From the IMG/VR virus record IMGVR_UViG_3300015242_000041, positions 1 through 23,668 of that record: a stretch of 23,668 nt of DNA. One strand, given 5' to 3'. The translations under genes and the position numbers were made by a program. A model generated the notes under the pieces. It did not search any database. It worked only from the letters and a program-made list of their open reading frames with translations, and was not told the DNA's origin. The DNA comes from a virus. How positions within the stretch are numbered: position 1 is the stretch's first letter; each line of letters starts with the position of its first letter. Of this stretch, positions 2,399 through 23,668 are shown in pieces.

Positions 2399-2566
2399 CG
2401 ATTCTTGGGGTGTTAGGTGGATACTCCCACTGGGTGCCCCAATTTCTTTCTCTATCACCGATTCCGCCATTACCTCTACCGGATTATTGGGGTTCTTGGT
2501 TACCACACCCGCCACAACCCCGGCCACAATACAGGTAAGTAAAATCAATATCCCCGCAATGCTCAT
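2387..2566 (-). CDS. 59-residue single-pass membrane protein
   Basis: This gene starts at ATG 2566, overlapping the stop of the upstream 46-residue gene (TAATG). Residues 3-22 are a clear membrane helix (IAGILILLTCIVAGVVAGVV). A soluble tail follows with the motif NNPVEVMAESVIEKEIG and a later LTP. Small phage membrane proteins with a helix followed by an N-P-[IV]-E-x-x-A-E-x-[IV]-I-type tail are familiar to me from many phages, without known function; this resemblance is from memory. It is the last gene of the ERF operon, and its end overlaps the convergent 134-residue gene by 12 bases. Confidence 0.6.
   Translation of the reverse strand: MSIAGILILLTCIVAGVVAGVVTKNPNNPVEVMAESVIEKEIGAPSGSIHLTPQESSHN
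2405..2452 (+). terminator. Stem-loop with T-rich tail after the plus-strand cassette
   Basis: TTGGGG (2405-2410) pairs with CCCCAA (2437-2442), and GTGG/CCAC pair inside the loop. A T-rich tract (TTTCTTTCTCT) follows on the plus strand. It lies seven bases after the stop of the 134-residue gene, as expected for an intrinsic terminator. It falls within the coding region of the convergent 59-residue gene on the minus strand. Confidence 0.5.
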
Positions 2567-2706
2567 TATTTACGCTTCTTTTCTTTCTTATCGGGCATAG
2601 GCATTTTTTTAGCGGGAGCCTTCATCTCCTTCTTTTCCATCTTTTTGATAAATTTCGGCTCTTTTTCCTTCAGCCCTTTCATAAATTTCGGCTCTTTCTT
2701 TTGCAT
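2566..2706 (-). CDS. Lysine-rich small protein with tandem KEPKF repeat
   Basis: This 46-residue protein starts at ATG 2706, four bases after the previous stop, with GGGGTGA as Shine-Dalgarno inside the preceding gene end. About 40 percent of its residues are Lys, and it contains two copies of K-E-P-K-F separated by 11 residues. At the DNA level this is a 17-base direct repeat (2648-2664 and 2681-2697). No membrane segment or known domain is seen. It could be a nucleic-acid-binding or virion-associated basic peptide. The overlap with the following gene and the tight spacing support its reality. Confidence 0.5.
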   Translation of the reverse strand: MQKKEPKFMKGLKEKEPKFIKKMEKKEMKAPAKKMPMPDKKEKKRK

Positions 2707-2710
2707 CCCT

Positions 2711-3016
2711 TCACCCCTTGTTTTGTTTAGCTTCCACTGTCCTTAATGCCTCTTCGTATAGAAACTGCGTATATATCTTTACTGACTCGACTTGGATCGC
2801 GCCCACCTCTTTAACGATAGCAGGTAAAAGCGCGATTGGGTCAAAGTCAGGAGACTTTCCCTCTCTCTTATATTTTCTCATAAAAAAGGCTAAGAAGTCT
2901 TTCACAGTGCGATGTGCAAAATCCTCATGCAGGAACCGGCGAAGCCGGGTGACGAATCCCGACTTGCCTTCATTTTCAAAAAATTCTTTTAGTACCTCAT
3001 CCGTCTCTTTGCTCAT
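2711..3016 (-). CDS. Hypothetical protein downstream of ERF
   Basis: This is a 101-residue soluble protein. The start chosen is ATG 3016 (MSKETDEVL), because AAGGAAA sits at the right distance; the frame is open upstream into the ERF gene but that is an alternative frame of ERF. It overlaps the ERF stop by 20 bases. It is predicted helical and highly charged, with a basic middle (TRLRRFLHEDFAHRTVKDF) and an amphipathic C-terminal half. I do not recognise a family. Its position in an operon with a single-strand annealing protein suggests an accessory role in DNA metabolism, which is unproven. Confidence 0.6.
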   Translation of the reverse strand: MSKETDEVLKEFFENEGKSGFVTRLRRFLHEDFAHRTVKDFLAFFMRKYKREGKSPDFDPIALLPAIVKEVGAIQVESVKIYTQFLYEEALRTVEAKQNKG

Positions 3017-3668
3017 TACAGTTTCCTTGCTGCTGTTGTGTTTCTTGATGCATTTTCTCAGTAACCTCTCGATAGACCTTAAGTCTGTCTTGGGCAAATG
3101 TTTCCGGAATATCATCTAACTTGCTAACCTTGTTGTGAGTTAGCCATAGTTTTATTTTATCTGGGGACGTGCCAAATGAAGCAATATACCCTTCCAGCTC
3201 TACCAGGGTTCCCGGCTTAATCTTTTCGGGTACAGGTACAACAGGCTTTTCAGGTACAGGCTCTTTGCTGCGCACATCTTCGTCATCGGTTTGCGTAATC
3301 CCCAGAATGGCACATATCGCATAACGGCGCATATATGTAATTACACTACCCAAATTCTGTATGCTGCTGTTTTTCTTTGTGGCTTCAGGCTCATTGAATG
3401 CCATGGTGCCGCTAATCCATTCCCCGGACGAATGCCCTAGCACCGTCCTCAAGGCTGGCTTACCCGTTCTCTCGCAGGAGGTGGTCATCTGAGAGACGCA
3501 CAGGCCATTCTTTAGCAGCAAAGGCTTAACGACGTCTAATACCGATCCTAAGTCAGCATATTTAAACCCAAATGCTTGGCTGTCTTTGTAGATATGGACA
3601 ACCTCGCCTTGGAATTGGCACAACGCAGTAAATAAAGCCCCGACGCTTTCTGATTGTGTGTTATTCAT
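2997..3668 (-). CDS. erf: ERF-family single-strand DNA annealing protein
   Basis: This 223-residue protein is of the Essential Recombination Function family (P22 Erf), which anneals complementary single strands for phage recombination and genome circularisation. Hallmarks seen: an N-terminal Y-A-D-L-G-S-V-L-D-V-V-K-P-L-L region (about 37-51), followed by a GL.V.Q segment, a central region ending G-S-V-I-T-Y-M-R-R-Y-A-I-C-A-I-L-G-I (about 107-124), then an acidic T-D-D-E-D. The C-terminal third is a variable Pro/Val/Glu linker and a small helical region, ending in a Gln-rich tail. It starts at ATG 3668 with GAGGGGAT upstream. It leads a four-gene minus-strand operon divergent from an RHH regulator. 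Confidence 0.9.
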   Translation of the reverse strand: MNNTQSESVGALFTALCQFQGEVVHIYKDSQAFGFKYADLGSVLDVVKPLLLKNGLCVSQMTTSCERTGKPALRTVLGHSSGEWISGTMAFNEPEATKKNSSIQNLGSVITYMRRYAICAILGITQTDDEDVRSKEPVPEKPVVPVPEKIKPGTLVELEGYIASFGTSPDKIKLWLTHNKVSKLDDIPETFAQDRLKVYREVTEKMHQETQQQQGNCNEQRDG

Positions 3669-3720
3669 ATTATCCCCTCTTTACTTTTATTTAACATTAA
3701 GTTACCTTAGATATACTACC

Positions 3721-3748
3721 ATTATAAATAAATTGGAGCAACAGTAAA
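3721..3748 (-). promoter_or_regulatory. Possible promoter for the ERF operon
   Basis: On the minus strand, TTTACT (3748-3743) and TATAAT (3726-3721) are separated by 16 bases, about 50 bases before the ERF start. The same -35/-10 pair occurs at the homing endonuclease gene with 17-base spacing. The region also lies directly before the divergent RHH gene at 3749, so repressor binding here could control both directions. A weaker plus-strand -10 (TATACT, 3712-3717) is also present. Confidence 0.4.
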
Positions 3749-3967
3749 ATGGAGAAAAAGAAACGGGGGAGACCCTGGCTGGGCACTGATACCGCCCATG
3801 TGGGGTTTACGGTGATGTTGACTGAGCGACAATACGAGTCCATGAAAGCAATAGCCATGGAAGAGGAAATCAGCATAGCGACGGTAGTTCGGCGCTGTAT
3901 TAACAAAACTTTGAAAGCACTAAAGGAGCAAGCCACGGATGGACAGAACAGTAACAGTACATATTAG
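3749..3967 (+). CDS. Ribbon-helix-helix DNA-binding protein
   Basis: This 72-residue protein starts at ATG 3749 (TTGGAG upstream). A basic N-terminus with an R-G-R-P patch precedes a likely RHH fold: beta strand GFTVMLTERQYES (about 19-31), helix KAIAMEEEIS, then helix IATVVRRCINKTLKAL. RHH proteins bind operators as dimers. The gene is divergent from the ERF operon across an 80-base gap, the classical place for an early-region switch. Its end overlaps the next gene by 29 bases. Which operator it binds is not known. Confidence 0.7.
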   Translation: MEKKKRGRPWLGTDTAHVGFTVMLTERQYESMKAIAMEEEISIATVVRRCINKTLKALKEQATDGQNSNSTY

Positions 3968-4421
3968 CGAGTCACTCTATGAGTTAATTAGAGATCGGGC
4001 TGCCTTAGAACACCTTAACACTGGCAAGCGCTTTTGTATGGGGAGAGCCGCGCTGAAGATGCTTGAAGCGCATTTATTATGTGAGGAGAGGGAGATTTGT
4101 AATGCAAAGAAGCGACCTGTCGGCTCTAAAAACAAGGGTAATACTGGCCTTCTTGCTGACAATCCTTTGTTTCTGCACCAATCTTCTGGTCATATTTTAT
4201 GTGAGCACCCCGTTGTTAAAGACCTCTTTGATCTTGGGGCATTTGGCGTGTCTGTACGTCCTGAACCCATCCCAGGCGTTAAAGAGACTAAACGAGAAAC
4301 ACAGGAACCAGCTATGGTAACCCCTGAAATGATTCAAGAGGTGATTGATGCGTCCAATATTATGACGTTTATTGATGAGTTCAGAGCCTGGCAGAAAGCC
4401 CAAAGAGAAGCAACGTCCTAG
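3939..4421 (+). CDS. RHH-like N-terminal domain protein with long tail
   Basis: This 160-residue protein starts at ATG 3939 (AAGGAG ten bases upstream), overlapping the previous gene. The first 45 residues look RHH-like: strand TVTVHISESLYELI, then helices around RDRAALEHLN and MGRAALKMLEAHL. A linker with K-R-P-V-G-S-K-N-K-G (about 57-66) resembles short basic motifs of phage DNA-binding proteins. The C-terminal 40 residues are predicted helical (PEMIQEVIDASNIMTFIDEF). It may be a regulator or accessory replication protein. A second, out-of-frame ORF encoding a membrane protein lies entirely inside it (4102-4320). Confidence 0.6.
   Translation: MDRTVTVHISESLYELIRDRAALEHLNTGKRFCMGRAALKMLEAHLLCEEREICNAKKRPVGSKNKGNTGLLADNPLFLHQSSGHILCEHPVVKDLFDLGAFGVSVRPEPIPGVKETKRETQEPAMVTPEMIQEVIDASNIMTFIDEFRAWQKAQREATS
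4102..4320 (+). CDS. Possible nested two-helix membrane protein (out-of-frame overlap)
   Basis: In another frame within the 160-residue gene, ATG 4102 opens 72 codons. It has an unusually good Shine-Dalgarno (AGGGAG 4089-4094, spacing 7, with AGGAG just before). The product has a polar start (MQRSDLSALKTR), a hydrophobic segment at about 12-34 (VILAFLLTILCFCTNLLVIF), a second at about 36-54, and a basic tail (KRLNEKHRN). This is the charge and helix layout of a genuine small inner-membrane protein such as a holin or antiholin. An overlapping frame can be hydrophobic by chance, so expression needs proof. Confidence 0.4.
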   Translation: MQRSDLSALKTRVILAFLLTILCFCTNLLVIFYVSTPLLKTSLILGHLACLYVLNPSQALKRLNEKHRNQLW

Positions 4422-4467
4422 CCAATCGTGTTTAAACTGGGACGTTAGCTAATGCTACCATAATGGC

Positions 4468-4495
4468 AAAAAAAACCCCAGTTGTGCGCTGGGGT
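4468..4495 (-). terminator. Leftward intrinsic terminator
   Basis: On the minus strand the stem ACCCCAG/CTGGGGT (4495-4489 with 4481-4475, seven base pairs, seven-base loop) is followed by eight T residues (4475-4468 are A on the plus strand). This is a textbook intrinsic terminator for leftward transcription. No minus-strand gene lies to its right before 6827, so it either stops antisense transcription running into the regulator genes or ends an unannotated short leftward RNA. Confidence 0.65.
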
Positions 4496-4517
4496 AATCA
4501 CCAGTAACGATGAGGAG

Positions 4518-4574
4518 AATTGTATGACCGTGCCATGAAGGACGGTATCTTTAAGTATACATGTACATACAATT
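4518..4574. promoter_or_regulatory. Nested inverted repeats upstream of a winged-helix gene
   Basis: AATTGTATG (4518-4526) is exactly inverted at 4566-4574 (CATACAATT). Inside, ACCGT (4527-4531) pairs with ACGGT (4542-4546), and the palindrome TACATGTA lies next to the right arm. The 4422-4590 gap has no other gene apart from the terminator. It is the probable control region for the genes starting at 4591; the repeats are candidate operators for an RHH or winged-helix protein. Confidence 0.4.
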
Positions 4575-4590
4575 ATCGCAAGGAATAGCC

Positions 4591-4884
4591 ATGGATGAGC
4601 GGATAAGGTTGATGACTTTGGTCTGGGATTGCCTAGAGATGGACTTAGAGCACGCAGAGGTCGCTGTATTGCTCAATGTGGCACGATGGGCGACAGAGGT
4701 AGGTAAGCCTATCCCTGCCCCTAGAAACCGCATAGCGAACCAATCAAGGCTGTCCCCGACGCGAGTTGATAGCGCGATGAGGCAGTTGATGAAGAAGGGG
4801 TACTTAGAGCGCGTAAAAGAGCATACGGCTACTAAGGCATCGGAATATATTTTGAATGAAAAACGATTAAGGGGAGAAGAATGA
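4591..4884 (+). CDS. Winged-helix-like DNA-binding protein
   Basis: This is a 97-residue protein. The start chosen is ATG 4591 (MDERIRLM) with AAGGA upstream; an in-frame ATG at 4561 lacks a ribosome site and lies in the control palindrome. The layout LEHAEVAVLLNVARWATEVG, then PAPRNRIANQSRLSPTRVDSAMRQLMKKGYLERVKE, is a winged helix-turn-helix like those of phage replication and DnaD-type proteins: the N-Q-S-R-L-S-x-T-R-V-D-S-A-M-R-Q-L stretch fits the recognition helix and YLERV the wing. Its stop overlaps the next start (ATGA). It is probably a regulator or replication accessory. Confidence 0.6.
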   Translation: MDERIRLMTLVWDCLEMDLEHAEVAVLLNVARWATEVGKPIPAPRNRIANQSRLSPTRVDSAMRQLMKKGYLERVKEHTATKASEYILNEKRLRGEE

Positions 4885-5129
4885 AAGAGATTACCGATTG
4901 CCACAAAGATCGCCTAAGAGCGATATCGTGTGAGCTAAGAAAAATGAATCAGCATTATTTATTACAGATGGCAGACATTGATTCGCTTACGGGCGATACC
5001 AGATTCTCATGCGCATTTGTGAGTCTTAATTTAGAAAAGGCTATTACTGAAATAGATATGGGTATTGAGCATATAGAGGTGTTCATTGATCCAAAATACA
5101 AAAAAGAGTTAAACTCAATCACGTCTTAA
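4881..5129 (+). CDS. Hypothetical protein coupled to the winged-helix gene
   Basis: This 82-residue protein starts at ATG 4881, overlapping the preceding stop (ATGA). GGGGAG lies eight bases upstream. It is soluble, probably mostly helical, with Cys residues at about 7, 13 and 40 and an acidic second half (AITEIDMGIEHIEVFIDP). No family is recognised. Its coupling suggests joint expression with the upstream DNA-binding protein. Confidence 0.55.
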   Translation: MKEITDCHKDRLRAISCELRKMNQHYLLQMADIDSLTGDTRFSCAFVSLNLEKAITEIDMGIEHIEVFIDPKYKKELNSITS

Positions 5130-5152
5130 AAGAAAGGCCACCCTAAGGCAGC

Positions 5153-5185
5153 CCTGATCTCAAACCAAGTTCAGGATACTTTTTT
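5153..5185 (+). terminator. Weak candidate terminator
   Basis: CCTGA (5153-5157) pairs with TCAGG (5171-5175), and T residues follow at 5180-5185. The stem is only five base pairs with a 13-base loop and a four-base gap before the T run, so this is marginal. It lies just after the stop at 5129. Confidence 0.25.
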
Positions 5186-5189
5186 CTAA

Positions 5190-5223
5190 GACAAAATGCA
5201 AGGGATAATCCCGATATTTTGTC
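5190..5223. promoter_or_regulatory. Nested inverted repeat before the replication initiator
   Basis: GACAAAAT (5190-5197) is exactly inverted at 5216-5223 (ATTTTGTC). Centred between them is a second palindrome, GGGAT-A-ATCCC (5202-5212). The two share almost the same centre, so this is either a two-tier operator or an RNA hairpin in the leader of the initiator gene that starts at 5275. No clear promoter hexamers are seen. Confidence 0.45.
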
Positions 5224-5274
5224 GGACGACTCTCTTGCTTGGAAGTTAACCCAACGCCAAGGGAGATTTTGGCC

Positions 5275-6252
5275 ATGTCTAATTTTGAAGAATTCGATTT
5301 TCAAGCCGATGAAAGCGTTCATCAACATCCGTTCACCATCATATATAACCAACTCATAGAATCTGATATCAGCCCAACTGCATTTAGGCTACTTACTTAT
5401 ATGTGCAGTAAACCAAAAGGCTGGAAGTTCCATGACTATAAGTTACAAGAAGTTTGCCAGTGCGGGGAGAGCAAATTTAAGCAGGCCGTCAAAGAGCTCC
5501 GGGATTCGGGATATTTGCAGACAGTCTCTACGCCATCAGGTTTGGGTGACGGTAAGTTTAAAGGCTCCAAACGTCTATTTTCTGGCAGGCCGATCTTCAA
5601 AAATACCGACAGGTTAAATTTCAACCCCTCGGCAAAAACCCCTCCCCCCGAAAGGTTGTTTCACCGAGAGGTTGTTTTACCGACTGTCGGTGAAACAACC
5701 TCTCAAGTTAGTAATACTGAAAGTCTTAGTAATACTGAAAGCAGCAGCAAGACTCGCGCGCGCGCACCCGCTTCATTAAACACAAATGAAAACGCGCCAG
5801 CCAAAGCCTTTGTTGCTGCTGTTGTTGAAGGAATTGAAAGGAAAGAAGGAAAAGGTGAATTCGAGTACGTACCGGAAAATGATGACCTGATATTGGAGCT
5901 GGGAAGAATTGATATCTCTTATCAGAGGGCCACGTTCCTGCTTAGAACGAAGGGCACCAGGCGTATCCGAGAGGTACTTAATGCCACTTTAGCTAATGCC
6001 AAGATAAATCCAGCAGCCTATCTTGAGAGGATGATCGCAAATGACTGGAAGCCTAAAGTAGGAGAGGCCAAAGAAGAGGCTCCTAAAGTGAACGTGGCTG
6101 TCATACAGACGCAAAAGATTATCGAGAGTAGGGTAGAGGCGGATAAGCTTAAAGAAGCGCTTGTGGCGAATCCTACGCTTAAGAATGACCGAATGCTTGC
6201 TTTGCGTAACGCCAATAAGCAGGGTCGATGTGCGGGGCTGGTTATGCACTAG
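5275..6252 (+). CDS. O-like phage replication initiator
   Basis: This 325-residue protein starts at ATG 5275 (MSNFEEFDF) with AGGGAG nine bases upstream; an in-frame ATG at 5239 has no ribosome site. Residues about 20-90 form a winged helix-turn-helix (SPTAFRLLTYMCSKPKGW, then VCQCGESKFKQAVKELRDSGYL), as in phage replication initiator N-domains. A low-complexity linker (about 120-180) coincides with iteron-like DNA repeats. The C-terminal part has a DnaD/RepO-like helical segment ending N-P-A-A-Y-L-E-R-M-I-A-N-D-W-K-P. The role is binding the phage origin and loading host helicase. No phage helicase or loader gene follows within the window. The specific family is inferred from domain order. 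Confidence 0.75.
   Translation: MSNFEEFDFQADESVHQHPFTIIYNQLIESDISPTAFRLLTYMCSKPKGWKFHDYKLQEVCQCGESKFKQAVKELRDSGYLQTVSTPSGLGDGKFKGSKRLFSGRPIFKNTDRLNFNPSAKTPPPERLFHREVVLPTVGETTSQVSNTESLSNTESSSKTRARAPASLNTNENAPAKAFVAAVVEGIERKEGKGEFEYVPENDDLILELGRIDISYQRATFLLRTKGTRRIREVLNATLANAKINPAAYLERMIANDWKPKVGEAKEEAPKVNVAVIQTQKIIESRVEADKLKEALVANPTLKNDRMLALRNANKQGRCAGLVMH
5650..5745. other. Candidate replication origin inside the initiator gene
   Basis: Three copies of a GGTTGTTT[CT]ACCGA element occur: direct at about 5653-5667 and 5670-5683, and inverted at 5687-5700. Copies 2 and 3 form a 19-base inverted repeat (5666-5684 / 5686-5704) with one mismatch. Immediately after are two direct copies of TTAGTAATACTGAAAG (about 5707-5739). 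Repeats in the linker-coding part of an O-type initiator gene are the arrangement of lambdoid origins, where the initiator binds its own gene. Function is inferred. Confidence 0.5.
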
Positions 6253-6296
6253 ATAAAGATGTTGACAGCGTGCGGACTTTTTGGTAAGCTAACCCA

Positions 6297-6470
6297 ATGA
6301 TTAGACCTAGATTGTACTCAGACCGACTACACCTGCGCATCAGCCCTGAGCTCATGGGGAAATTGCGTAATGTCGCCTTCGACAAAGGCATCACGGCCAG
6401 TGAGATGATGCGCCGTTTGCTGTTAAACTACCTTGAGGGTCTGGGAAAGAGTGCTGAGGAAGAGACATGA
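6297..6470 (+). CDS. Arc/CopG-type RHH protein
   Basis: This 57-residue protein starts at ATG 6297. The fold is clear: strand RLHLRISPELMGKL (about 10-23), helix RNVAFDKGI, the T-A-S-E-M turn, then helix MMRRLLLNYLEGL (37-49). This is a minimal RHH repressor. It follows the replication initiator by 44 bases, and its stop overlaps the start of the next micro-ORF (ATGA). It may autoregulate the replication operon. Confidence 0.65.
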   Translation: MIRPRLYSDRLHLRISPELMGKLRNVAFDKGITASEMMRRLLLNYLEGLGKSAEEET

Positions 6471-6547
6471 CGCGATTGTCCATAATCTTGGGGACGTTTC
6501 CCTATATCGTTATCCTTATATTGGCGGCCCAGTGGCTGTGGAGTTAA
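6467..6547 (+). CDS. 26-residue micro-membrane protein
   Basis: ATG 6467 overlaps the RHH stop (ATGA) and opens 26 codons: a short basic start (MTRLS) and one hydrophobic helix (IILGTFPYIVILILAAQWLW). The next gene begins four bases after its stop. Short length leaves real doubt, but the coupling on both sides and the typical single-pass layout support translation. Confidence 0.4.
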   Translation: MTRLSIILGTFPYIVILILAAQWLWS

Positions 6548-6550
6548 TTG

Positions 6551-6811
6551 GTGAAAAAATTTAATGAATTAACAGAGGCTGAAAAGCTGGATAAGATTTT
6601 CTGTAAAGCAAACCTGCAATGCGAGGAAGCTATTGAGGCTGCCATAGATGCCACAGAGGATGACCGAGAGGAGCGGGAAAAACTTATGCCTTGGATTGAG
6701 TTTAACCGCGACATGCAAGAGTTCTTGCGTAATCGTTGCAGTAATCAGGACGCCAGAGAATTTATGCAAGAATACGTCGCAGAAGTACGATCTGTTAGAA
6801 TGCGACGGTAA
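6551..6811 (+). CDS. Small acidic hypothetical protein (GTG start)
   Basis: The start chosen is GTG 6551, since GGAG at 6540-6543 is seven bases away; a TTG at 6548 is too close to it. The 86-residue protein is strongly acidic in the middle (EEAIEAAIDATEDDREEREK) and basic at the end (EVRSVRMRR), mostly helical, with Cys residues near 18, 23 and 63. No family is recognised. It is part of the plus-strand early operon. Confidence 0.55.
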   Translation: MKKFNELTEAEKLDKIFCKANLQCEEAIEAAIDATEDDREEREKLMPWIEFNRDMQEFLRNRCSNQDAREFMQEYVAEVRSVRMRR

Positions 6812-6826
6812 TTAAACTTTAGGGTA

Positions 6827-7222
6827 CTAGGGATGGAACTTATCGCTATCTTCGCTTGGAGCGGCCTTGCTATCATTGTTGCTGCTGTTTATATCGCTAT
6901 TGGGGTCTGGCTTTGGCGCAAACTGTGAAAGCAAGGGGTGGCGTGCTATGTGTAAATTTAGATCCAGGCTATCATCGTCTTTCGGGATTTGTACGATTAT
7001 TTCATCAGCAGAAATGTCTGGATGAACAGGGGAACCTGGCGGCGGTTGAGGTGGTATTTGTTGAGCTGTGTTTTGCGAGAAAGCTAAGGCCGCTGATATG
7101 CAGGCGACTCCTGAGCTTACCAGGGCGGTCGCAGCAGGCGGAAAGAAGACGGCACCCACGATTAGCCCTACGCCCACCACAAGTAAGACGTAGAACATAA
7201 CGCGCTTTTTTCTGATTCTCAT
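6827..7222 (-). CDS. Two-helix membrane protein beside endolysin, candidate holin
   Basis: This 131-residue protein starts at ATG 7222, 15 bases after the endolysin stop; an internal ATG at 7198 (residue 9) is an alternative start. The N-terminus MRIRKKRVM is very basic. Two hydrophobic segments follow (about 10-27 FYVLLVVGVGLIVGAVFF, and 30-48), then an 80-residue hydrophilic, Pro- and Asp-rich tail. Small size, two helices and adjacency to the endolysin fit a holin. Two Met starts separated by a positively charged stretch recall dual-start holin/antiholin genes. The long acidic tail is unusual for a holin, so a spanin-like or other membrane role is possible. No strong Shine-Dalgarno is seen. 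Confidence 0.5.
   Translation of the reverse strand: MRIRKKRVMFYVLLVVGVGLIVGAVFFPPAATALVSSGVACISAALAFSQNTAQQIPPQPPPGSPVHPDISADEIIVQIPKDDDSLDLNLHIARHPLLSQFAPKPDPNSDINSSNNDSKAAPSEDSDKFHP
6833..6928 (+). CDS. 31-residue micro-membrane protein, antisense overlap with lysis gene
   Basis: ATG 6833 (AGGG at 6821-6824) opens 31 codons: MELIAIFAWSG followed by LAIIVAAVYIAIGVWLW and a basic end RKL. This is one membrane helix with a positive C-terminus. It follows the 86-residue gene by 21 bases on the same strand and overlaps, antisense, the disordered C-terminal tail of the convergent 131-residue gene. Its reality is plausible but unproven. Confidence 0.4.
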   Translation: MELIAIFAWSGLAIIVAAVYIAIGVWLWRKL

Positions 7223-7236
7223 CAGATAATTATAGA

Positions 7237-7704
7237 TTATTTGGCTGCTGTGAACTTTAGATAGTCTCGGAGATATTCTGCTGCTGTGGCCTTGCCTGCC
7301 TCTGTGTTCCAGAATTTTTTGATATGTTCGCTAAGAAGTTCAAGGTCAGTTGGGATTGGTGTATATACACGTAGGAAAAATATCCTGGCCATCGCTGTCG
7401 CGAGATAAAGGTTCCCCTCCATTTCTTCAGGCTCTGGAATGTGCTTGAGGTTGCAGGAGTCCATCAGCCGGTTTTCGAGGTCGGGTTTATTAAATAGATA
7501 TCTTCGCCACAGATCGTTAAATGTAGCGGTCTCCATTTGGTAGACTCCTAGAGCCGGCCCTTTGGTCTGCTGAAGGTAATATCCACCGTTAGACTCGTGG
7601 GCCATGACCATCACCAGCAAGTTTTCAGCTTTATCTGAGGCGAGTTCTAGCTTGGCTAAGGTAGGCCGAATTATAGATGCTCTAAACTGCTGATTGTCGA
7701 TCAT
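7237..7704 (-). CDS. Endolysin / lysozyme-like muralytic enzyme
   Basis: This 155-residue protein starts at ATG 7704 with GAGGTG upstream. It belongs by motif to the lysozyme-like superfamily. The helix LLVMVMAHESNGG puts a candidate catalytic Glu at residue 37, followed by G-P-A-L-G-V-Y-Q-M-E (49-58), the glycine-tyrosine-glutamine signature of transglycosylase-type enzymes. The rest is helical, with no signal peptide, membrane segment or wall-binding domain, so it would need a holin for release. It lies downstream of three tiny basic-protein genes and directly upstream of a two-helix membrane protein. The role is cutting host peptidoglycan at lysis; the exact bond cleaved is not determined. 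Confidence 0.75.
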   Translation of the reverse strand: MIDNQQFRASIIRPTLAKLELASDKAENLLVMVMAHESNGGYYLQQTKGPALGVYQMETATFNDLWRRYLFNKPDLENRLMDSCNLKHIPEPEEMEGNLYLATAMARIFFLRVYTPIPTDLELLSEHIKKFWNTEAGKATAAEYLRDYLKFTAAK

Positions 7705-8480: not shown

Positions 8481-9041
8481 ATGTCAGATAGTAAAATTTG
8501 TCGTATTGAGGGCTGTAAATCTTTGTGTGCAACAAGATCTAGCTTATGTGTAATGCATAAAGCTAGATGGTTTAGACGAAAATCCTTTGAACTTCCCGTT
8601 AAAGAGGAAATTCCCGAAGGGTATATCATGAAATGCCAAAATCATGGTTTTCTGAAAAAAAAGGAAGCAACCACGTCAGGAAAATACCCGAGATGTAAGA
8701 AATGTCAAAAAATATCCACCAATAAAAACCACAAAAAATATCCTGAAAAGAGGTTATTAAATGCAAAAAAAATGAATTTAAAATCTAAATTCGGTCTTTC
8801 TCTTGATGATTTGGATAAATTAATTAAAAAATATGAGAACCTCTGCGCTATATGTCGAAAACCAGAAACAACATATGACGCCAAAACCAAAATCATTAAA
8901 CGTCTTACCATAGATCATTGCCATAAAACCAATGAAATACGCGGATTGCTTTGCAACAAATGCAACTTTGGCATTGGTTATTTTAACGACTCAATTGAGA
9001 TATTAAAATCAGCCATCCAATACCTAGAAAAGAATGGCTGA
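8481..9041 (+). CDS. Endonuclease VII-family (HNH-like) homing endonuclease
   Basis: This 186-residue protein starts at ATG 8481 with AAGGAG six to eight bases upstream. The C-terminal half is the Recombination endonuclease VII fold: zinc pair C-A-I-C (122-125), catalytic D-H-C-H (145-148), then G-L-L-C-N-K-C (155-161) and a final helix IEILKSAIQYLEKNG. The N-terminal half has further Cys/His pairs (CRIEGCKSLC, KCQNHG, CKKC) resembling zinc ribbons for DNA recognition. It sits as a free-standing gene on the plus strand inside a minus-strand late region and has its own promoter, typical of a mobile homing gene. Its base composition is notably A/T-rich compared with the fibre genes. A relative lies at 23075. 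Confidence 0.85.
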   Translation: MSDSKICRIEGCKSLCATRSSLCVMHKARWFRRKSFELPVKEEIPEGYIMKCQNHGFLKKKEATTSGKYPRCKKCQKISTNKNHKKYPEKRLLNAKKMNLKSKFGLSLDDLDKLIKKYENLCAICRKPETTYDAKTKIIKRLTIDHCHKTNEIRGLLCNKCNFGIGYFNDSIEILKSAIQYLEKNG

Positions 9042-21495: not shown

Positions 21496-23078
21496 TCGCG
21501 TATCTCCATGCTACAAGGGCCTACAACGACGCGTGCTGTGCTCCAAAATCTAAACTTGAAGGTAATCGTATTGCAGGCACCCAAAGAATCCCAATGCAGG
21601 ATATTCTGCCTATATCCAATGGGATTTAAATCACGCCCTACGGTATTGCTCCACGTAACGCCAGAGTCTTTTGAAATAGATAAATCGACGCGTGGCTGAT
21701 AAGGCATTGTATAGGACGAGCCACCACCCCAGGAATCCTCTGTAATAATCGGTACGCCCCATTCGGATAGCACCAGGTCACCCTGCTCTGTGATGACATA
21801 AGTTATGTTTCCAGGAGGCAATGCGTTGGGGTCTTGTCCCTGTTCTATCGTCAGCGTCAGGCGATTAACCACAAAACGATCACTGTTGGGCTGAATCATA
21901 TTGTCTGTAATCCGGATGCGCTGCATGTCGAAGACGAGTAATGGATCGGCCTGTCCAGGAGTATTCTCATTAATAACGGTGATATCCGTGTCAATTGAAT
22001 AGATAGAGGCATTGTTAATAGAGGCGAAATACGTTTGCTGATTAAAATAGGCGTACTGCCTGGCAGGGTGATAGTTTAAATACTGGTCGGATAAGTGAAA
22101 GAATTTCTTGCTCTCAAAGTCGAAAGCTAAGGTCAGGTTATCCTGTGGATCGAAAAAGGTAATCTGATAAAACAAATGCCCGTCAACCCGAGAGAATAAC
22201 GCCGTAGACTTATCAGGCCGCTTTAAGGTGCCCATGACATAGTCGATACCGTCCGTTGATACAGGGGTGGCTCCTTGGCCCGCGTAGACCATGATAACGG
22301 GGGCATTCTCGGCATTAACAGCCAGCCACATAATGAAATTATCAGATGCCGCGATGGTAGACACAGAGATGCAGCCATAATCGACAGAGATAGAATTTAC
22401 GCGACGGTAGTTCTGAAGGCCGCCAATCTGTGTGTGAACCTCACAAACTGAGGTGCCAAACACCAAGACGTTGGCCGACTGGGCTGGTATACGGATGACG
22501 GCAATGGCATAGTCAGGCTTAGTTTGAAGGGCCAACTGGCTAATCTGGACGATGGTTGTGGGTGTGCTAAAACCATAGGCATACCAAGCGGCTCCATTTG
22601 AAGTGGTGTTCCCGTTTCCAAAGAGGAAATAGGTGTTGTGATAGGTGACGTATTTAGGGATAAGGCCGCCGCCCACGCTCTGGATAGTGATGTTTGGGGG
22701 CAGCGTATAGTTGTATATGTACGCATTCACGCCATCGACGATACAAATTTGGCTATTGAGGTTCTCGTCCATAAAGACCTCACCTGTATTAGAGGCAAGG
22801 TTTCCGATTAGAATGGCGCCAAGGGCGGTGTTAAGCTGATAGACCTGACTGTTAACGACAGCAAGCATGAATCCACCACGGATACTGCGGAAGATACCGC
22901 GACCTTCACCTGAAGGGAGTAGTTTGGCGACGACTTGATAGCCGGGGTAATTAATCAGCCACTGATCGCTGACGAAAAGATTGTACGTCTTTTCGGACGA
23001 TATTTTTGCATACCTGCCGAATGAACTGCTCCCAATCGCTGCAACCGGTACGTCTTGTCCTTGGGTTGTTTTCGTCAT
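21492..23078 (-). CDS. P22 gp10-like tail hub / packaged-DNA stabilisation protein
   Basis: This 528-residue protein starts at ATG 23078, overlapping the stop of the upstream endonuclease gene. It is similar in length to P22 gp10 (472). The start matches in pattern (E-K-T-Y-N-L-F-V-S-D, then Y-P-G-Y), followed by repeated WD-like beta strands through the middle and an end resembling gp10: N-T-I-T-F-K-F-R-F-W, then V-V-V-G-P-C-S-M-E-I-R-E beside gp10's I-G-F-K-L-R-V and L-S-G-C-Q-I-R-L-E. gp10 forms the tail hub that closes the portal after DNA packaging. It anchors the P22-like reading of the genes that follow. The comparison is from memory. Confidence 0.75.
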   Translation of the reverse strand: MTKTTQGQDVPVAAIGSSSFGRYAKISSEKTYNLFVSDQWLINYPGYQVVAKLLPSGEGRGIFRSIRGGFMLAVVNSQVYQLNTALGAILIGNLASNTGEVFMDENLNSQICIVDGVNAYIYNYTLPPNITIQSVGGGLIPKYVTYHNTYFLFGNGNTTSNGAAWYAYGFSTPTTIVQISQLALQTKPDYAIAVIRIPAQSANVLVFGTSVCEVHTQIGGLQNYRRVNSISVDYGCISVSTIAASDNFIMWLAVNAENAPVIMVYAGQGATPVSTDGIDYVMGTLKRPDKSTALFSRVDGHLFYQITFFDPQDNLTLAFDFESKKFFHLSDQYLNYHPARQYAYFNQQTYFASINNASIYSIDTDITVINENTPGQADPLLVFDMQRIRITDNMIQPNSDRFVVNRLTLTIEQGQDPNALPPGNITYVITEQGDLVLSEWGVPIITEDSWGGGSSYTMPYQPRVDLSISKDSGVTWSNTVGRDLNPIGYRQNILHWDSLGACNTITFKFRFWSTARVVVGPCSMEIRE

Positions 23079-23668
23079 TCTGAAGTTTCTCTATGATGTT
23101 CTAGGTACGCTATCGCGCGAAAGAGGCGCTCTACATCATCCTCAAACTTTCCAAGACCAGTATTGCATCCATGACACAAAAGAGCCCGAACATTATTTGT
23201 TTCGTGACAGTGGTCTACCGTTAATCTCGCCACGTCTCCACTCCTATTCTTTCTTGTCTCTGGCCTGCAACATATGTCACATAAATTCTTTTGGTCTTCA
23301 AACATTTTGTCGTACTGGTCTTGAGTAAGGCCATACATCCGTATAATTTCTTTAGTATTCAGCTCTTTCTTGCCATATTTCTCTACCTTTATTTGATAGG
23401 CTTTTTTATGGATATTTTCCCATTTTTCAGGATTTCTAGCTCTATCCTCTGCCATCTTAGCGTTAAACCATTCTCGATTATTATTACGTTTAGTATTAGC
23501 GGAAGCCCTGTGACATTGTTTGCATCTTCCCTTTGTCCCAATGTCCTCTGGCTTTAATTTTCCATGATGCTTGCAAACCATTCCATCGCGCCACGTGCGC
23601 TCATTAACGCATTTTCCACATCGATAAGTCCATTCGCCTTTATATCTTGGATCTTTCTTAACGCTATG
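23075..23668 (-). CDS. Second Endonuclease VII-family homing endonuclease (5' end outside window)
   Basis: The frame is open through the right edge, so the true start lies outside; at least 197 residues are visible. The upstream part adds a zinc-ribbon-like YRCGKC and DGMVCKHHG. The C-terminal half is the Endonuclease VII fold: C-D-I-C, catalytic D-H-C-H, then A-L-L-C-H-G-C-N-T-G-L-G and a final helix. It lies in the same orientation as the late genes and its stop overlaps the gp10-like start (ATGA), so it is co-transcribed and probably translationally coupled. It is a relative of the gene at 8481. Confidence 0.85.
   Translation of the reverse strand, partial: HSVKKDPRYKGEWTYRCGKCVNERTWRDGMVCKHHGKLKPEDIGTKGRCKQCHRASANTKRNNNREWFNAKMAEDRARNPEKWENIHKKAYQIKVEKYGKKELNTKEIIRMYGLTQDQYDKMFEDQKNLCDICCRPETRKNRSGDVARLTVDHCHETNNVRALLCHGCNTGLGKFEDDVERLFRAIAYLEHHRETSE

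Follow-up and report, generated by a model that had tools for sequence, protein, structure and literature searches.

A conserved reading frame for a putative membrane protein nested within a predicted regulator gene of a podophage-like virus

Introduction

Does a short open reading frame lying wholly inside another gene of a podophage-like virus encode a membrane protein of its own, or is it an accident of the coding sequence that surrounds it? The question is raised by positions 4102-4320 of the virus record IMGVR_UViG_3300015242_000041, all 23,668 bases of which were analysed and are referred to here as the window. Across the 12,609 virus reference genomes surveyed in PMC8903798, overlaps in the +1 frame have a median length of 14 nt, with an interquartile range of 8-26, and in dsDNA viruses most overlaps are very short; the overlap at 4102-4320 extends over 219 nt.

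The window encodes a head-closure protein (phrog_578, E = 6.7e-37), an Erf annealing protein (E = 4.8e-35) and, on the basis of PHROGs matches, replication-initiation-like proteins. The nested frame is found on the plus strand among genes for recombination, regulation and replication; both its host gene and the small regulator gene preceding it are divergent from erf (Table 1). Elsewhere in the window, an endonuclease-VII-like or HNH-like protein is encoded on the plus strand at 8481-9041 (PF02945, E = 1.3e-19), and a second, similar to it by eye, on the minus strand at 23075-23581. These are probably homing endonucleases, one of which has inserted opposite to the direction of its neighbours.

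Table 1. Features of the operon containing the nested reading frame, in window coordinates
Feature	Position	Strand	Evidence
Small ribbon-helix-helix-like regulator, 72 aa, first gene of operon	3749..3967	+	Pfam RHH_7; phrog_876; G037 homologue
Shine-Dalgarno of outer gene, AAAGGAG	3922..3928	+	Sequence; anti-Shine-Dalgarno pairing -7.9 kcal/mol
Outer gene, 160 aa	3939..4421	+	Open reading frame; G037 homologue; AlphaFold2 model
Shine-Dalgarno of inner gene, AGGGAG, 7 nt before ATG	4089..4094	+	Sequence; G037 counterpart L189:4331-4336
Inner gene (putative), +1 frame, 72 aa, two predicted hydrophobic helices, basic C-terminal tail	4102..4320	+	Open reading frame; G037 counterpart; null models; AlphaFold2 model

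Results

The outer gene and its surroundings

The small regulator matches Pfam RHH_7 with an E value of 4.3e-4, under the curated cut-off, and phrog_876, a family of transcriptional repressors, with an E value of 1.2e-4. Its 3' end overlaps the start of the outer gene by 29 bases. The outer protein is laid out as an N-terminus, a basic AKKRPVGSKNK motif, a predicted disordered linker and C-terminal helices. The N-terminus is ribbon-helix-helix-like by eye; searches of Pfam, PHROGs and NCBIfam found neither this nor any other family in the protein, and a two-sequence profile had no matches among PDB sequences at E values up to 1. The label of putative DNA-binding regulator used here comes from this resemblance and from the adjacency to the small regulator.

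An AlphaFold2 model of the outer protein, built from two sequences, has low overall confidence (mean pLDDT 43.9), with values below 50 at residues 1-14 and 45-127; the inner gene spans residues 55-128. The outer protein had been described in the first-pass annotation as linker-like over this stretch, and the model agrees in predicting a disordered linker across the overlap, though the overlap opens with a conserved basic motif, AKKRP in the window and AKRRP in the relative described below. That the outer gene might be an annotation artefact was considered and rejected, as its N-terminus is conserved in the same relative.

Three starts are stacked on the plus strand between 3922 and 4104, the end of the regulator gene overlapping the start of the outer gene and the inner start lying within the latter; the three proteins may be translationally coupled. 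Past the outer gene but ahead of the replication genes, the minus strand has at 4475-4495 a hairpin resembling an intrinsic terminator with a run of T after it; no minus strand gene was seen that it might end.

The nested frame and its predicted product

The frame at 4102-4320 had been singled out as a 72-codon membrane protein gene with a strong Shine-Dalgarno, two membrane helices and a basic tail. It does consist of 72 codons and a TAA stop, lies entirely within 3939-4421 and is shifted by +1 relative to it. The Shine-Dalgarno, ending 7 nt upstream of the ATG, has an anti-Shine-Dalgarno pairing energy of -8.5 kcal/mol, and a further similar motif, GAGGAG, lies immediately upstream. When pairing is scored within 14 nt of the start codon, this value is equalled or bettered by four of the 368 out-of-frame internal ATG or GTG codons in the window's genes, and by three of its 23 gene starts as drawn here.

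Two hydrophobic stretches were found in the predicted protein, the second being moderate: the best 19-residue hydrophobicity mean is 2.75 in the first and only about 1.4 in the second. Net charge is +2 at the N-terminus and +3 at the C-terminus in both the window and the relative, and in the loop +1 in the former against -2 in the latter. AlphaFold2 predicts helices at residues 3-33, 37-54 and 56-71 (mean pLDDT 76.6). Hydropathy, charge and model are consistent with two membrane segments, cytoplasmic ends and a basic C-terminus. A Foldseek comparison of the model with viral structures, which is uninformative for a helical hairpin such as this, returned no matches at E <= 0.001 and 230 at E <= 10. 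For neither the inner nor the outer protein was there a Pfam or NCBIfam family above the curated cut-off, and the best PHROGs matches had E values of 0.089 or weaker.

Search for relatives

No relative of the inner or outer protein was found in viral contigs, nor of the outer protein in genome contigs, in searches whose reach was limited to close relatives; viral contigs likewise contained no relative of Erf or of the replication protein. Among named phages, blastn of positions 3700-5200 found nothing, and tblastn found no relative of the outer, inner and 72 aa proteins of the window or of the outer and inner proteins of G037, the relative introduced below. Plasmids contained no relative of the outer protein.

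A clade of viruses was then gathered by aligning the head-closure protein with named phages, and subsequently with closer kin. The outer gene was found in one of 134 records (129 virus records and five metagenome-assembled genomes), namely G037. By batch of whole records the tally was 0 of 16, 1 of 41, 0 of 46 and 0 of 31, the last excluding G105; the query was the protein for the first two batches and the two-sequence profile for the others, and G037 was recovered as a positive control in the search of the 31. G105 has a weak local match to the profile (E = 0.009, over 28 model positions in a 386 aa frame) and was left uncounted, whilst L231 has a weak match to the regulator. The inner protein and Erf were not found in the 16 records L010-L025, and positions 2400-6900 share only two DNA matches, of 29 and 21 bases, with the 41. 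A local profile search of 260 sequences (2.58 Mb, including overlaps) found no further outer gene. The 64 distant loci L026-L089 were covered through 35 records searched whole and 29 searched via flanks only. In L192 and L193, two loci related through the 1994-2398 protein, the downstream genes are different ones and the profile found no outer gene; they speak neither for nor against the inner gene.

G037 (IMGVR_UViG_3300045258_000074, the end part of which is L189) is syntenic with the window. Homologues of 1994-2398 (46% identity), of 2711-3022 (53%; drawn in the window without a start codon at its beginning) and of the small regulator (31% over 48 aa) occur in the same order. At the place of the window's Erf, G037 has a RecT-family protein; Erf (2997-3668, minus strand) and the latter (L189:3092-3946, minus strand) seem to share a stretch, 44% identical over 54 aa and placed by eye at the C-terminus, which may reflect a swap of annealing domains. 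The outer proteins are 33% identical, the significant match lying in residues 2-65 (41%, E = 5.7e-10). The G037 contig stops 11 bases past the inner stop codon, and no stop interrupts the outer frame before the contig runs out.

Another of the related records, G004 (36,370 bases), carries a minus strand gene (L090:16141-16917) whose product belongs to PF05150, the major outer membrane protein family of Legionella (E = 1.5e-36), near what appears by eye to be a resolvase-like gene. The product may be a porin carried by the phage, and it hints at Legionellales as hosts. Among 299 genomes of the phylum of G104, three had a match to PF05150, one of them over the cut-off; the outer profile had no match in 397 genomes of the order of that one genome.

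Conservation of the inner frame

At the corresponding place, G037 has an open reading frame of 73 codons plus a stop in the same +1 frame, which again encodes two hydrophobic stretches between basic ends. Whether the start signals persist, and whether relatives have stops in the inner frame, had been proposed as tests of the nested gene: in this one relative GTG replaces ATG, AGGGAG is retained at the identical spacing of 7 nt, and, at some evolutionary distance, no stop interrupts the frame. In both phages the frame is open slightly upstream of its start, from 4057 in the window and from 4287 in L189.

With one single-codon gap, 18 of 73 residues of the inner proteins are identical. Plain BLASTP of one against the other is not significant (E = 0.063), and bespoke null models were therefore used. 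The one-gap BLOSUM62 score of 75, for which the start residue was written as M in both proteins, was reached by none of 20,000 composition shuffles and by one of 20,000 shuffles preserving the hydrophobic pattern. It was also reached by none of 20,000 pairs of open frames obtained by resampling codons from the window's codon table, applied to both phages, with both outer proteins held fixed. When gaps were left free, none of 5,000 shuffles attained the global or the local score; without the first six residues the corresponding numbers were 0 and 16.

The third position of an outer codon is the second position of an inner codon. It is T in 30 of 73 codons in the window and 35 of 74 in G037, an excess of z 2.7-3.4 by codon table, that of the window again being used for both phages. 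Suppression of synonymous change in the outer frame across the overlap had been suggested as a further check, and here the outcome depends on the alignment. In the one-gap alignment, identity at the first, second and third outer codon positions is 27, 25 and 36 of 73. The third exceeds what base composition would give (p = 0.0002, or 0.0006 without the first six codons), and is the only position clearly to do so, the first having p = 0.05. It also exceeds third-position identity elsewhere, which is 100 of 318 when the outer N-terminus, the small regulator (21 of 52) and two neighbouring genes are combined (Fisher p = 0.0033). By contrast, the free-gap alignment fitted to the outer protein (17 of 68 residues identical) gives 33, 36 and 28 of 68; since this fit leaves the third positions least conserved, the wobble-position test rests on the one-gap alignment. 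The inner frame is under selection, as judged from one pair of genomes.

The outer frame across the overlap

The free-gap alignment score of the outer proteins across the overlap was reached by six of 5,000 shuffles globally and by 593 locally. Without the first six codons, which contain AKKRP or AKRRP, these numbers rise to 541 and 3,750; because the score falls in this way, the outer frame is conserved where the overlap begins and little after it. When the inner protein was fixed and its codons resampled, with the window's codon table for both phages, the outer frame was open in 1,051 and 3,961 of 50,000 trials for the two phages, which is only suggestive of the outer frame staying open beyond what the inner protein would give.

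Within the overlap, codon usage of the outer frame is typical of each phage, at the 70th percentile in the window and the 76th in G037, and that of the inner frame, at the 5th and 16th, is atypical. By the argument put forward for the D and E genes of phiX174 (PMC8227390), the outer frame would be the older. That the inner frame is the better conserved would instead suggest an older inner frame, or else only shows that the linker is free to vary.

Expectation by chance

Nested same-strand open reading frames of at least 60 codons number 307 in 1,241 genes of the window and related records, and 24 of them have two hydrophobic stretches. The length and hydrophobicity of the inner frame alone are not remarkable; its conservation in a distant relative is what lifts it above chance. 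With the outer protein of the window fixed and its codons resampled, the inner frame was open in 4,731 of 100,000 trials. Using each phage's own codon table, an open frame with two stretches that matched or exceeded the observed hydrophobicity arose in 59 of 100,000 trials for the window and 19 of 100,000 for G037.

As a control, other nested frames were followed through 6,400 comparisons of homologous pairs with 25-62% identity, a set which includes duplicates where fetched regions overlap and from which the window-G037 pair drops out, its outer alignment covering too little of the nested frame. The frame was open in 173 of these; no pair combined an open frame with two-helix-like character in both partners. 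The sole other nested frame of the window with a G037 homologue, 109 codons within the head-closure gene, has two stops in G037.

Discussion

With the open reading frame, its start signals, their conservation in G037 and the selection upon it all established computationally, 4102-4320 is very probably a real gene encoding a membrane hairpin. It could otherwise be a chance open frame, in which T-rich outer wobble positions yield a hydrophobic +1 frame and the relative repeats the pattern by chance or through the likeness of the outer proteins. Nested frames of such length are indeed common, some of them with two hydrophobic stretches, and the inner codon usage is atypical; against this, null models that preserve the outer proteins never reach the similarity of the inner ones, resampling rarely produces frames so hydrophobic, the control comparisons yielded no parallel, and the Shine-Dalgarno and start are conserved, making a chance origin very unlikely. 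That the inner frame is instead the C-terminal part of a +1-shifted outer product, joining a DNA-binding head to a membrane tail, seems equally remote, if not slightly more so. Such a fusion would suit the short open extension upstream of the start in both phages, but the residues encoded there look dissimilar between them, similarity setting in at the start codon; the conserved Shine-Dalgarno and start likewise speak against it, and no slippery site was seen by eye.

Other alternatives accept the gene and differ as to what its product does. A holin or other lysis protein, forming a hairpin like those of class II holins, would fit the size, the two hydrophobic stretches and the basic tail, and there are precedents for nested lysis genes. 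However, the frame lies in the plus strand region of recombination, regulation and replication, and a better candidate for the lysis cassette exists on the other strand: a membrane protein with two hydrophobic stretches (6827-7222) adjoins a gene at 7237-7704 whose product appears endolysin-like and matches phrog_3108, of unknown function, with E = 6.8e-35. The two are likely to form the cassette. A class II holin gene is expected beside the endolysin in the late region, though not without exception, and 4102-4320 is placed otherwise. Lysis is on these grounds an improbable role, and the hint of one in the first-pass annotation, drawn by analogy with Rz1, is not supported. An Rz1-type spanin was itself rejected by eye: a small residue precedes the cysteine of a lipobox, and cysteines 23 and 25 (21 in G037) have none before them, the outer N-terminus moreover being polar. 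Small hydrophobic basic peptides are often toxic, and nesting in an operon with a ribbon-helix-helix-like regulator would suit a small membrane toxin restricted to a low dose by the surrounding regulators, but no toxin family was matched in Pfam or NCBIfam, and this role too is rather unlikely.

The preferred reading, which had been proposed as overprinting from the window alone, is supported in the one relative by the start, the Shine-Dalgarno, the open frame and the wobble-position conservation. The gene would overprint, in the +1 frame, the linker region of a putative phage DNA-binding regulator gene. With a Shine-Dalgarno and start of its own, it would be initiated independently on the same message, perhaps with help from ribosomes translating the outer frame. 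Since it would be translated from the same message, synthesis of the membrane protein would be tied to that of the regulator. The positive-inside rule suggests that the 72 aa product forms a hairpin in the inner membrane, its two ends cytoplasmic, and its synthesis would be early. We tentatively suggest an early membrane effector, for superinfection exclusion or host takeover rather than lysis, as a possible function. More doubtful is the wider proposal that regulator and effector form a module sharing DNA, with the effector locked to the regulator's control, the inner frame the better conserved and the overlap kept as a tolerant linker, and that this is the first member of an unnamed exclusion or host-takeover family.

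Selection on an inner frame in a tailed-phage regulatory region, outside any lysis cassette, suggests that hidden membrane proteins of this sort can be found where wobble positions are conserved across the disordered linkers of phage regulators. The locus also provides a case, amenable to experiment, of a membrane effector wired directly to a regulator. Judged by title and abstract, nothing pertinent emerged from a literature search for nested frames in phage genes of the ribbon-helix-helix type; this does not show that none has been published.

Comparison with known systems

The E protein of phiX174 has a single membrane segment, whereas the product of 4102-4320 has two hydrophobic stretches. 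As described in PMC8227390, E is likewise a fully nested same-strand gene in a shifted frame of D, and T at the third position of outer codons similarly becomes T at the second position of inner ones, giving a leucine-rich membrane segment. E is, however, the lysis protein of a 5.4 kb ssDNA phage, and the frame considered here belongs to a regulator gene of a tailed phage, with lysis an unlikely role. Rz1 of lambda is reported to lie within Rz in the +1 frame, at a stretch where Rz is mutationally silent (PMC5295617), comparable with the predicted disordered linker of the outer protein; it differs in being an outer-membrane lipoprotein of a lysis cassette, within an Rz that has an N-terminal membrane segment, neither of which is seen here. 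The sgl genes of leviviruses are described as small open reading frames with a Shine-Dalgarno and a membrane segment, often in the +1 frame and in less conserved parts of genes (PMC7693330), as is the inner frame; they belong to ssRNA phages, function in lysis and have arisen de novo repeatedly, and no homology was detected between them and the inner gene. In the control region of a dsDNA phage, olg1 and olg2 of Pseudomonas phage Fc02 overlap on the same strand beside the repressor; according to PMC9936078, olg1 confers superinfection exclusion and Olg1 is found in the soluble fraction. They differ from the present pair in not being nested around an internal Shine-Dalgarno and in the solubility of Olg1. 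The pair described here matches no family searched; small membrane proteins encoded by nested genes on the same strand are already a known kind.
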